A program made the translations under genes and the position numbers. The notes below the pieces were generated by a model. The model was given only the letters and a program-made list of their open reading frames with translations. It ran no database searches and was not told the DNA's origin. 64,000 nucleotides of DNA from an uncultured Prochlorococcus sp. (GTDB lineage: Bacteria > Cyanobacteriota > Cyanobacteriia > PCC-6307 > Cyanobiaceae). Of this stretch, positions 59,257 through 63,259 are shown piece after piece; position 1 is the first letter of the stretch; each line of letters starts with the position of its first letter. The stretch is from NCBI GenBank assembly GCA_902626435.1, contig CACOFO010000001.1, positions 47,170-111,169 on the forward strand, written 5' to 3'.

Positions 59257-59553
59257 ATGCCGATTTTTGTTAAAACAGAAATTATTAAAAAGGAATTTAT
59301 TAGTAATAAAAAATTTAAAAATAAAATCGTAGATGAGCATATATTGTGGATAAAAGAATTAAAAAAAGCTGGAGTAAATATAAAAAGTGGATTCTTAGTA
59401 AATGAAATTAAGAAGCCTGGAGCCGGAGGTCTTTTGATGATTGAGGTAAAAACATATAAAGAGGCACTAAAAATAATTAAGGAAGATCCAATGATTAAAA
59501 ATAAAATTGTTAATTGGAAATTGAGTGAATGGATTGATATTTCTAAAGAATAA
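59257..59553 (+). CDS. YciI-like protein
   Basis: 98 aa, HILWIKELKKAGVNIKSGFLVNE...GGLLMIEVKTYKEALKIIKEDPMIK. Confidence 0.72.
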   Translation: MPIFVKTEIIKKEFISNKKFKNKIVDEHILWIKELKKAGVNIKSGFLVNEIKKPGAGGLLMIEVKTYKEALKIIKEDPMIKNKIVNWKLSEWIDISKE

Positions 59554-59558
59554 TCCTC

Positions 59559-60494
59559 TTATCTTGGATATTTTTTCATTAATTTTTGAATCTCTTCAGC
59601 ATGATAACTACTTCGCGTTAAAGGAGAACTTACTACTTGCATAAAACCAAGATTATCTTCTCCAAACAATTTGAAGTAATTAAATTTTGGAGGACTCACA
59701 AATCTTTGAACAGGCAAATGTTTTGGGCCAGGAGATAAATATTGACCAATAGTAACTATATCTACAAAATGATTTCTCAAATCAGAAAGAAGATTTAAAA
59801 CCTCATCATCACTTTCGCCTAATCCCAACATAAAGCCGGATTTTGTATAAACACTAGGAAAATATTCTCTTGTGCGTTTGAGTAAATCTAAAGTTCTTTG
59901 ATAATTGCCTTGAGGCCTTACTTTCTTATATAAACCTTTTACAGTTTCAATATTATGATTCAGGACATTTGGTTTTGAATCTAAAACTAATTCAAGCGCT
60001 TTCCAGTTGCCACATAAATCAGGGATTAATAGTTCAATGGTTGTCTCTGGAGATTTTTTTCTCACTTCCGAAACGCATTGAAAAAACTGCGATGCCCCAC
60101 CATCATCAAGATCATCTCTGTTTACTGATGTAATGACAACGTGTTTGAGATTCATCCTGGAAACAGCCTCTGCAAGACGATGAGGTTCAGTTGGATCTAG
60201 ATCTCTTTTAGATCTATCAAAATTAATATCGCAATATGGACATGCTCTAGTACAACCTGGACCCATTATTAAAAAAGTCGCAGTACCACTTGCAAAACAT
60301 TCTCCAATATTTGGACAGCTTGCTTCCTGACAAACTGTATTTAATTTTAAATCACTTAATAAATTCGCGGTATTACCTATCCTCTCAAATTGAGGAGCCT
60401 TTACCCTTAACCACTCTGGTTTTGTTGCCGCATTTTTGGAAATACTTGTCAAATTACTTTGATCAGTTTCATCTAAATAAATTTTAATCAACAT
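59559..60494 (-). CDS. lipA: Lipoyl synthase
   Basis: [13 protein letters not shown] and [10 protein letters not shown] cluster motifs. Confidence 0.97.
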
Positions 60495-60582
60495 TTCGTT
60501 TTTTTACTATTTAAATTCTTCTGTAGTCAAGAAAAATATTGTTTATTCAGCTTTTATTAAATAATGAAAAAGAAATCTTTAT

Positions 60583-60603
60583 GTTCTATAATCATAATAG
60601 AAC
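60583..60603. repeat. Inverted repeat GTTCTAT-N7-ATAGAAC upstream of the recombinase-like gene; further TAGAAC at 60610-60615 and GTTCTAT at 60694-60700
   Basis: gttctataatcataatagaac read directly; same hexamer family recurs nearby in both orientations. Confidence 0.65.
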
Positions 60604-60691
60604 ATTTTTTAGAACGTATTTTTTAATACAGTAAAAAAACATTATAATAAAATCTCTTCATCCAAAAATTATAATTATTATAGTGTTTTAA

Positions 60692-61378
60692 TTGTTCTAT
60701 TTATTGTTTTTTTTTGGGGTATTTGATACAGTAAAAAATATATCTTTTAATACTTTGTCTTTTCATTTCAAAAGAAAGAGCTCTCTTTTATCTGAGAAGA
60801 ATAAAAAGAAAAAATCTATAGGATATGCTAGAGCAATTGATAATGAAAGTTTTTACCTAGAGGAACAAATACAATTCTTAAAAAATGAAGGTTGCAATTT
60901 AATATTTTCTGAAATCTTGAGTCTTGATTCAGAAATAAAGCCCGAATTCCAAAAAGCTTTAAAAGCTTTATCTAAAGGAGATGAATTAGTCTTAACCAAA
61001 CTGGATCGGGCATTTTCTAATAGAAATGAATGTATAGTAGTCATAAATAGACTTTTAAATCAAGATGTCCAGTTACGAACTTTATCTGGTTTTTTTACCA
61101 ATAAAGATTCTCCAAACGCATCATCTTTAATCTTTAATATTTTATGTGAATTAAATAATTTAGATAATGAGTGCCTAAAAGAAAGAAAAAGAGAAAACTT
61201 TTTAAAAAGAAGATTAAATGGGAATAATTTGGGAGGGAGGCCCAAGATAAGTACTTTAAAGGAATCTCTAGTAATTAGATTGCGTGACGAAGGCTATTCA
61301 TATCGATCAATCAGAGCACAAACAGGAATAGCCTTATCAACTATTAGAAGAGTAATCTTAGATGAAGAAGGTAAGTAA
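60692..61378 (+). CDS. Serine recombinase (resolvase/invertase) family homolog, probably catalytically inactive; domain starts about 60815, TTG at 60755 is an alternative start
   Basis: SIGYARAIDNESFYLEEQIQFLKNEGC, GDELVLTKLDRAFSNRNE, C-terminal HTH LKESLVIRLRDEGYSYRSIRAQTGIALSTIRRVI. Confidence 0.85.
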   Translation: MFYLLFFFGVFDTVKNISFNTLSFHFKRKSSLLSEKNKKKKSIGYARAIDNESFYLEEQIQFLKNEGCNLIFSEILSLDSEIKPEFQKALKALSKGDELVLTKLDRAFSNRNECIVVINRLLNQDVQLRTLSGFFTNKDSPNASSLIFNILCELNNLDNECLKERKRENFLKRRLNGNNLGGRPKISTLKESLVIRLRDEGYSYRSIRAQTGIALSTIRRVILDEEGK

Positions 61379-61379
61379 T

Positions 61380-61592
61380 ATGAAAAAAAACGAACTTGAA
61401 AATCTTATTAAAGAAAATTTTAAAGATACAGCATTGCGAATTTATGAATTAGATAATGGAGATAGAAATAGCTTATTAGCAGAATATCGAGAATGGATAA
61501 TGAATGACTTAGATTTTGAGGAAGTAATGATGTTACCTTATGAAGCCTATACTGACAGGTTAGATTCTAATTGTCTAGACGATTTACTTTAG
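61380..61592 (+). CDS. Small acidic hypothetical protein, 1 nt downstream of the recombinase-like gene stop (ORF track starts at 61362)
   Basis: MKKNELENLIKENFKDTALRIYELDNGDRNSLLAEYREWIMNDLDFEEVMMLPYEAYTDRLDSNCLDDLL. Confidence 0.75.
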   Translation: MKKNELENLIKENFKDTALRIYELDNGDRNSLLAEYREWIMNDLDFEEVMMLPYEAYTDRLDSNCLDDLL

Positions 61593-62497
61593 TCGTGAAT
61601 AAAATGTTTCTTGTTAAATTCATATACTTCTTTTGCTATTAATGGTAAGAAGGAAGTATCTTTAGAATAATTTTCTCCATTACAAAAAATAACCAATAAT
61701 GTATGCAGAGATTGACTATTAGTCCACCAAGCAGAATCATGTCTAACTTCAGACATTAAGCCTGCTTTACTCCAAAGATTAATGCTTTCTGGTAATCCTG
61801 CACCCAAAAAACCATCTATTTGATTAAGAGCATCGTTCTTGAGAAAAACTTTATTTAAATTTCTTTTTAAAAAACTTCGTAAATTTAAATCATTTTTTTG
61901 ATAGTCAATATGAATCATAATTTCCTCCAAAACCCGAGCAGCTGAATCAGAATTCATGGCATTTCTATTTTTATTATCAAGTCCGTAAAATTCTTTTTCA
62001 CGACCAAATGGTCCATCATCCCAAGTCTTCTGACAACAGTTTATATCACTCAATTCGTCCCAATGTAAATCATGTAGCCAATCGTTTATTATATTTCTTT
62101 GATATTTCCAATTTTCCCATAATTCGCCTTCAATACAAGGTCCACTTGTTGTTCCAGTAAGTAAATCAATTAAGAAGCTTGTTGCATTGTTACTTGAGAA
62201 AGACAGCATTTTCCTTACAGCATCAATTATTTCATCTGATAATAATAAACTTCCTTTTTTAATCCAATAAAATGCAGCAAGGCCATAAACCAACTTGACT
62301 ATGCTGGCAGGGTAGAACATTTTTTTATTATTAATACCAGTTCCAAAACCTTTAAATACTCTTTTATTTTCACTTTTATAATTAATCCAAGTTATAGCAA
62401 TATCTTCTCTTGAAAAATCTTTATTATAAGAGCATACTCTCCCTAAGATATCATTTAAGGCTAGACCCATCTCTTCACTTAAATAGTAAAAGGACAT
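61589..62497 (-). CDS. Class A beta-lactamase/PBP-like serine hydrolase
   Basis: YPASIVKLVYGLA (SxxK) and SFSSNNATSFLIDLLTG (SxN region). Confidence 0.8.
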   Translation of the reverse strand: MSFYYLSEEMGLALNDILGRVCSYNKDFSREDIAITWINYKSENKRVFKGFGTGINNKKMFYPASIVKLVYGLAAFYWIKKGSLLLSDEIIDAVRKMLSFSSNNATSFLIDLLTGTTSGPCIEGELWENWKYQRNIINDWLHDLHWDELSDINCCQKTWDDGPFGREKEFYGLDNKNRNAMNSDSAARVLEEIMIHIDYQKNDLNLRSFLKRNLNKVFLKNDALNQIDGFLGAGLPESINLWSKAGLMSEVRHDSAWWTNSQSLHTLLVIFCNGENYSKDTSFLPLIAKEVYEFNKKHFIHD

Positions 62498-62500
62498 AGT

Positions 62501-63259
62501 ATGGAAAATAATAAAAATCCTATCTCACTATTTAAGCAAACTAATTTTTCAAAAACTATTTGGTGGAAATTAAAAGTTAATATTTCTGGATATCAAAATG
62601 AAACAGAAGATAAATTAATAACTGAAATATTTAAAAATAGAATTTTTAGGCTACTTTATCCAAATATTTATCAACATAACCATAAACTTTCAAGAATTCT
62701 TGTTCAACTATATGAAGATGGTTACATCTGTTGGATAAATTTAGATGAATTGATTATTGAGAAATACGAATTAAGAAAAACTAAAAGTTTAAAAAATGAA
62801 CATTTCTTTATAGACGATAAAATTACCTCAATTTTAAAGTGGATCAAAGATCAAGCTAAGTTAAATAATGAATACCTTTGGGGAGGCACATTAGGTCCAC
62901 ATTTTGATTGTTCTGGATTAATTCAGACTGCTTTTTTAAAACATAATATTCATATACCTCGAGACTCTTATCAAATAAAAAGTTTTTGTAAACATCTTTT
63001 TTATTTCAAAGAATCTTATTTAGCTCTACAACCAGGTGATCTTTTATTTTTTGGAAATGAAGAAAAATGTGATCACATTGGAATCTACAAAGGGGATGGA
63101 TTATATTACCATAGCTCTGGAAAGGATTTTGGCAGAAATGGTATAGGCTTAGATACCCTAAAACGGTCTAATGATAAAATCTCATTGCATTATAAATCAA
63201 AACTAATTTCTGCAGGAAGAGTAGTTAGAAATTATAGATGGGATAGAACAATACGTTAG
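62501..63259 (+). CDS. NlpC/P60-family cell-wall peptidase
   Basis: YLWGGTLGPHFDCSGLIQTAF (Cys), PGDLLFFGNEEKCDHIGIYKGDGLYYHSSG (His). Confidence 0.93.
   Translation: MENNKNPISLFKQTNFSKTIWWKLKVNISGYQNETEDKLITEIFKNRIFRLLYPNIYQHNHKLSRILVQLYEDGYICWINLDELIIEKYELRKTKSLKNEHFFIDDKITSILKWIKDQAKLNNEYLWGGTLGPHFDCSGLIQTAFLKHNIHIPRDSYQIKSFCKHLFYFKESYLALQPGDLLFFGNEEKCDHIGIYKGDGLYYHSSGKDFGRNGIGLDTLKRSNDKISLHYKSKLISAGRVVRNYRWDRTIR

Follow-up and report, generated by a model that had tools for sequence, protein, structure and literature searches.

REC, a core gene of the high-light (HL) Prochlorococcus that is annotated as a site-specific recombinase, encodes a serine recombinase homologue in which key residues for strand cleavage have been replaced, and we think it probable that a resolvase from a tRNA-associated island has here been exapted as an autoregulatory DNA-binding protein. 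The copy analysed lies in a window of 64,000 nucleotides (the whole stretch of DNA under study) from an uncultured Prochlorococcus sp., the source of which is the assembly G000 (1.07 Mb, 65% complete). An initial annotation made from the letters alone had proposed a dead recombinase kept as a DNA-binding regulator, and residue loss, synteny, selection and constrained upstream repeats support that proposal, with regulation as the role they would point to.

The open reading frame list for the window contains a forward strand frame at 60692-61378, and its product matches Pfam Resolvase (E = 8.6e-15), a PHROG DNA invertase family (3e-28) and, amongst PDB sequences, Gin best (1.3e-13), with Sin and the Tn3/gamma-delta resolvases also matched. 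This confirms a homologue of the resolvase/invertase type of serine recombinase, as was first recognised. The frame had also been taken as full length; it does exist, but its 5' end is over-extended and the likely start is a TTG at 60755. A TTG before the GYAR motif is common to all 51 distinct orthologues apart from L048, which has GTG, and it sits 22 codons before GYAR in 50 of them and 21 codons before it in L008. Many orthologues carry in-frame stops directly upstream of this shared codon, which itself aligns within about one codon to the ATG of the intact MIT9313-type protein. A start at 60692 is ruled out by these stops and the shared TTG/GTG, on which grounds 60755-61378 is taken as the gene (likely a TTG-initiated coding sequence of 207 amino acids) and the 5' part of the listed frame as regulatory DNA. 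The gene and its two domains are placed as follows.

60755-61378, forward strand: predicted catalytically dead serine recombinase homologue, orthologue of MED4 PMM1515 (TTG/GTG start, Pfam Resolvase, S10I/R45K/R71S, dN/dS)
60815-61168, forward strand: former catalytic and dimerisation domain, S10, R45, R71 and R119 replaced and fold retained (AF2, Foldseek)
61229-61375, forward strand: C-terminal resolvase-type helix-turn-helix (HTH), LGGRPK...SYRSIRAQTGIALSTIRRVI (identity, dN/dS, pLDDT)

With residue positions set by alignment with gamma-delta resolvase and Gin, the window protein has Ile for the nucleophilic S10, Lys for R45, Ser for R71 and Asn for R119, the first three exactly as originally read, and also Cys for R121; Y6, R8, Q19, D67, R68, E124 and R125 are retained. 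The catalytic arginines R8, R45, R68 and R71 are therefore broken as a set, R8 and R68 being kept and R45 and R71 replaced. Amongst the 51 orthologues position 10 is Thr in 30, Ile in 16, Ser in four and Ala in one, Lys occupies position 45 in every case and Arg in none, and R71 survives in a single protein. The loss thus holds across orthologues (51/51 for R45, 50/51 for R71) with no alternative conserved Ser, and the Ser of the NES sequence, considered as a hidden nucleophile, occupies a position that is Ser, Ile, Phe or Tyr. From the alignments the protein is predicted to be catalytically dead throughout the HL orthologues. Some catalysis might be imagined to persist, or to run by an unusual route with Thr 10 or a different residue as the nucleophile, from the 30 Thr and four Ser proteins and from the retention of R8, D67 and R68, but this seems very unlikely given Ile in 16 and Ala in one, the loss of R45 throughout and of R71 everywhere except in one protein, the lack of another conserved Ser, and a distal upstream dyad of 23-25 bp where several intact relatives have crossover-like dyads of 30 bp. 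Against a role in DNA binding alone it must be said that R8, D67 and R68 are invariant and R125 is present in 50 of 51, a conservation that such a role would not obviously call for; these residues may serve the structure or bind a ligand.

The serine recombinase fold and its C-terminal HTH are both present, as judged by Pfam and by AF2 and Foldseek comparison with 5cy1, 2gm4 and Sin, in agreement with the early impression of an intact fold. An AF2 model built from 47 aligned sequences has a mean pLDDT of 79, reaching 90-95 in the DNA-binding domain and about 85 over most strands and helices of the N domain, with the first 16 residues low, and it reproduces the resolvase order of strands and helices together with the long helix E. 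(A single-sequence model of the L069 protein, at pLDDT 45, was of no use.) In Foldseek the model comes closest to Tn3 resolvase in complex with res site III (E = 1.5e-10), and the N domain matches Tn3/gamma-delta resolvase and Sin. Identity to the intact relatives is 69% in the DNA-binding domain and 33% in the N domain. The good preservation of a resolvase-type HTH, also proposed at the outset, is plain by alignment and by its pLDDT despite a Pfam HTH_7 score of 19.7, below the gathering score of 23.8.

For the distribution of the gene, the assemblies G015, G339, G193, G041 and G215 are taken to be MED4, AS9601, MIT9301, MIT9215 and MIT9312, and on that assumption the genus is called high-light here. 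An orthologue occupies the same place in 24 of 24 same-genus genomes in one family sample; in a second sample it is found in most, those without it being a few drafts of 50-93% completeness. The gene order gltB-yciI-lipA(-) / REC-70aa-bla(-)-nlpC-psaL(-) holds at every locus where the contig is long enough to show it. In MED4 the match at 1,456,993-1,457,670 contains the position 1,457,449 at which PMM1515, 'Site-specific recombinase', is placed in the one paper found (PMC7852597), and this agreement supports the MED4 assignment. The immediate neighbours of most concern are these.

59559-60494, reverse strand: lipA, divergent from REC, its 5' region adjoining the array and a possible second target (syntenic in all HL orthologue loci)
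61380-61592, forward strand: 70-aa acidic frame that begins 1 nt after the REC stop, a possible operon partner (conserved position)

The 70-aa frame has no family match, and its dN/dS is 0.085-0.17. Between REC and psaL there also lie a Beta-lactamase2-family protein (61589-62497, reverse strand) and an NlpC/P60 protein (62501-63259, forward strand), possibly a peptidoglycan-related pair. In a comparison over 59257-63259 of the window (loci L009-L058), REC, lipA and yciI of the AS9601/MIT9301-like group are no closer to the window than those of MED4, while its 70-aa frame, bla and nlpC are about 73-92% identical to the window; for MED4 the identities are 71% (bla) and 62% (nlpC). Such mosaic ancestry suggests allelic replacement across the locus.

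Purifying selection acts on REC, and most strongly on its DNA-binding domain. By pairwise Nei-Gojobori estimates dN/dS is 0.155-0.21 for the whole gene, 0.17-0.29 for the N domain and 0.02-0.08 for the DNA-binding domain, the last being comparable to or below that of lipA (0.086-0.10) and near that of psaL (0.026). The substitution pattern points to selection on folding and on the binding of DNA, not on cleavage. A recently decaying gene had been put forward at first as the alternative, and it is rejected: dN/dS gives no sign of relaxed selection, and there is one syntenic place across the genus. That REC is decaying and simply not yet lost is hardly credible; the lost catalytic residues and the fast divergence of degenerate copies in other genera would fit such a view, but dN/dS stands at 0.155-0.21, the frame is open in the orthologues examined and, in one sample, no near-complete same-genus genome lacks the gene.

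If REC is kept for binding DNA, the candidate target lies directly upstream. Intact relatives carry regularly placed TGTTCCA half-sites before the gene, which in MIT9313-type copies stand near −220, −138 and −83 relative to the GY codon, and several of them (clearly L066, L075, L077, L090 and L091) have a 30-bp dyad around a 2-bp centre, the form that a crossover site should take. Several half-sites, as in a res-type array, are also found upstream of the HL gene, in three blocks.

60582-60604, no strand assigned: distal dyad TGTTCTATAATCATAATAGAACA of the res-like array (related blocks in orthologues)
60610-60632, no strand assigned: distal block TAGAACGTATTTTTTAATACAGT with two further half-site-like elements (conserved block, three allele groups)
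60692-60754, no strand assigned: proximal array TTGTTCTATTTATTGTTTTTT...TTGATACAGTAAAAAATATAT, which reaches the start codon (pairwise conservation, alignment to L119)

The distal part amongst HL genomes is a dyad, TGTTCTA...TAGAACA, with neighbouring half-sites, and the proximal block takes the form TGTTCTATTAAGTGTTTTTTT...TTGATACAGT(A/T)AAAAATATA up to the start codon; this proximal array appears to be related to the promoter-proximal array of the MIT9313-type recombinases. A half-site matrix, built by hand from intact relatives alone, picks up 1.63 sites in each HL upstream region on average, where shuffled sequence gives 0.28, an enrichment that serves as support and neither as 51 independent tests nor as a p-value, the 51 HL sequences being related. 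Pairwise difference between orthologues is 0.11-0.15 in the proximal block against 0.19-0.29 at 4-fold sites, and 0.45-0.49 in the spacer, the latter partly from poor alignment. The upstream repeats named at the outset are thus real and constrained. Alignment to the L119 upstream region gives z = 3.7-6.2 for five genomes of groups A and HLI, the window among them, and z = 0.6-0.9 for allele group B, a weak likeness to the ancestral array that counts against the regulator reading. The HL distal dyad, at 23-25 bp, falls short of the dyad of about 28-30 bp with a 2-bp centre that marks a site I, and this is consistent with a lost crossover function.

The array seems to be essentially private to the gene. 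In the 1.07-Mb assembly the pattern TGTTCYAN{5,25}TRGAACA matches once, at the distal dyad, and genomes searched with the array DNA, with TTGATACAGTNAAAAA at up to two mismatches and with that same pattern yielded no convincing second array that might support a regulon beyond the own locus. In the regulon search the own locus alone stands out, the other matches looking like AT-rich noise; a promoter consensus scan found two against 3.1 in shuffles. A nucleoid factor had initially been offered beside a regulator, and that half of the suggestion is the less likely one, as the genomes searched show next to no array outside the stretch directly before the gene. An architectural protein acting at many weak sites would suit the intact fold and the strongly conserved HTH, but is distinctly unlikely with the dyad found once in the window's assembly, at its own locus, and only scattered matches in other genomes. 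A conserved DNA-binding domain under selection together with a candidate operator is what a transcription regulator would present.

As to origin, the maximum-likelihood tree places the HL orthologues in one clade (100/100) with a long stem (1.33) and short inner branches, nested among mostly intact small serine recombinases of marine picocyanobacteria. These intact proteins (MIT9313-type, G169 L069; also L066, L077 and L091) are the closest family of HL REC and share with it the motif SYRSIRxQTGxALSTIRR and an upstream TGTTCCA-type array, the MIT9313-type copies having in addition an N-terminal extension of about 22 residues as HL REC does. In contrast to HL REC their catalytic residues are intact (RSRRR), and they lie at tRNA islands or other loci and not beside lipA; family members are found near tRNA-Ser, -Asn, -Phe or -Thr/-Tyr. 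On its 3' side lipA has yciI-gltB in nine other-genus genomes, as in HL, and in the three other-genus genomes examined on the 5' side its neighbour is tRNA-Pro(CGG) and not REC. From these settings we infer that HL REC arrived on a tRNA-associated island. Searches of viral contigs gave one distant match only, and phage records only matches below 60% identity. The assembly G000 itself holds a second serine recombinase (C11:1684-2217; L085:1675-2256), distant at 28% identity and with catalytic positions intact.

Degenerate copies occur in 12 genomes of other genera, small genomes that we take to be low-light Prochlorococcus, at a locus different from that of HL REC: panC-purM-hyp-...-REC-...-lpxB-like-rnd, with tRNA-Cys nearby in most. 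These copies (L105-L113, L115, L079 and L068) resemble HL REC in having lost catalytic residues and kept the DNA-binding domain (70% identity to intact relatives, against 37% in the N domain), and differ from it in locus and in a much faster divergence, also evident on the tree. Intact copies at or near the purM locus are L072, L096, L081 and L074. Given the degenerate copies of other genera at the tRNA-Cys locus, catalytic loss with retention of DNA binding has probably recurred in picocyanobacteria. Catalytic state changes at least seven times on the tree, a soft number because long branches are poorly resolved, and the test of one clade uniting the HL genes with the dead copies of the purM locus gives AU p = 0.19, so that these may have a single origin. 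Upstream of the degenerate L105, L107 and L110 there are ACTATAGT-type repeats, and in L105, between about −237 and −213 relative to the GY codon, TTATTAGAACA-type copies recur every 12 bp, as if each degenerate copy had either retained an operator or altered it.

Short matches of 51-68% identity to the C-terminal domain only (G113:C9:8381-8536, G183:C27:4680-4820, G326:C2:980104-980253, G109:C21:4981-5094 and G119:C32:1520-1648) may be remnants or HTH-only mini-proteins. Downstream of intact and some degenerate other-genus recombinases there is a 68-74-aa frame (L072:3430-3633, reverse; L106:4342-4563 and L068:4327-4542, forward; seven other loci) with the consensus ..EWREEFKxLKG..LLDEGATxMxxAWRLGALHAEYKRLK, the L072 copy matching PHROG families of unknown function (2.4e-10), a hint of a mobile-element module. 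It has no visible sequence likeness to the HL 70-aa frame.

The chief rival to the regulator is an anti-island role, where the dead protein would occupy res sites or mix dimers and so block recombination or expression by active relatives on incoming tRNA islands. The DNA-binding domain shared with intact relatives at 69% identity, the similar half-sites of those relatives, and the coexistence of intact and dead copies in some genomes (G220 with L073 intact and L110 dead; G050 with a dead copy and L090 and L091 intact) all speak for it, but in most of the HL genomes searched REC is the only close member of its subfamily, and in HL the half-site has changed from TGTTCCA to TGTTCTA; we regard this role as improbable. 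A broader proposal, that island-borne resolvases repeatedly lost catalysis and kept the DNA-binding domain, the HL copy having become either a core regulator of its host or a factor of immunity that recognises the res-type sites of related mobile islands, is tentative and rather doubtful.

Returning to the preferred reading of an autoregulator, the ancestor would have been a small serine resolvase able to catalyse recombination, resident on a tRNA-associated island and with a res-like array within the promoter region of its gene, and it would have become fixed beside lipA in the ancestor of the high-light genus. Strand-cleavage chemistry would then have been lost through replacement of S10, R45, R71 and R119 and the protein kept as a presumably dimeric DNA-binding protein, whose C-terminal HTH most likely binds the array at 60582-60754 and so may repress or tune the REC-70aa transcript, and perhaps lipA, without recombination. 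TnpR of Tn3 autoregulates tnpR and tnpA by binding res, which contains their promoters (PMC7157771), and on the simplest view this is the part of TnpR's function that HL Prochlorococcus has retained. The HL protein is like Tn3/gamma-delta TnpR in fold, in HTH and in a gene placed downstream of a multi-site array; unlike TnpR it has S10, R45 and R71 replaced, a locus without transposase or cointegrate partner and a distal dyad without crossover spacing. Sin recombinase and Gin invertase, the best PDB sequence matches, share the fold but are catalytically active, a likeness of fold and sequence with no sign of a shared biological role. The part consulted of a review of exapted mobile elements (PMC8987985) treats serine recombinases as invertases and in integration and excision and names no catalytically dead resolvase regulator, and a modest open-access literature search found no description of one.

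What is at stake is the identity of a universally kept 'site-specific recombinase' predicted to be unable to recombine. High-light Prochlorococcus keeps few genes and few regulators, and a dead recombinase retained in that setting is best seen as a misannotated core gene, likely regulatory, in a very abundant phototroph. It would also show in clear form how a resolvase, along with its operator array, can turn into a DNA-binding protein, a conversion that the autoregulation by TnpR implies.
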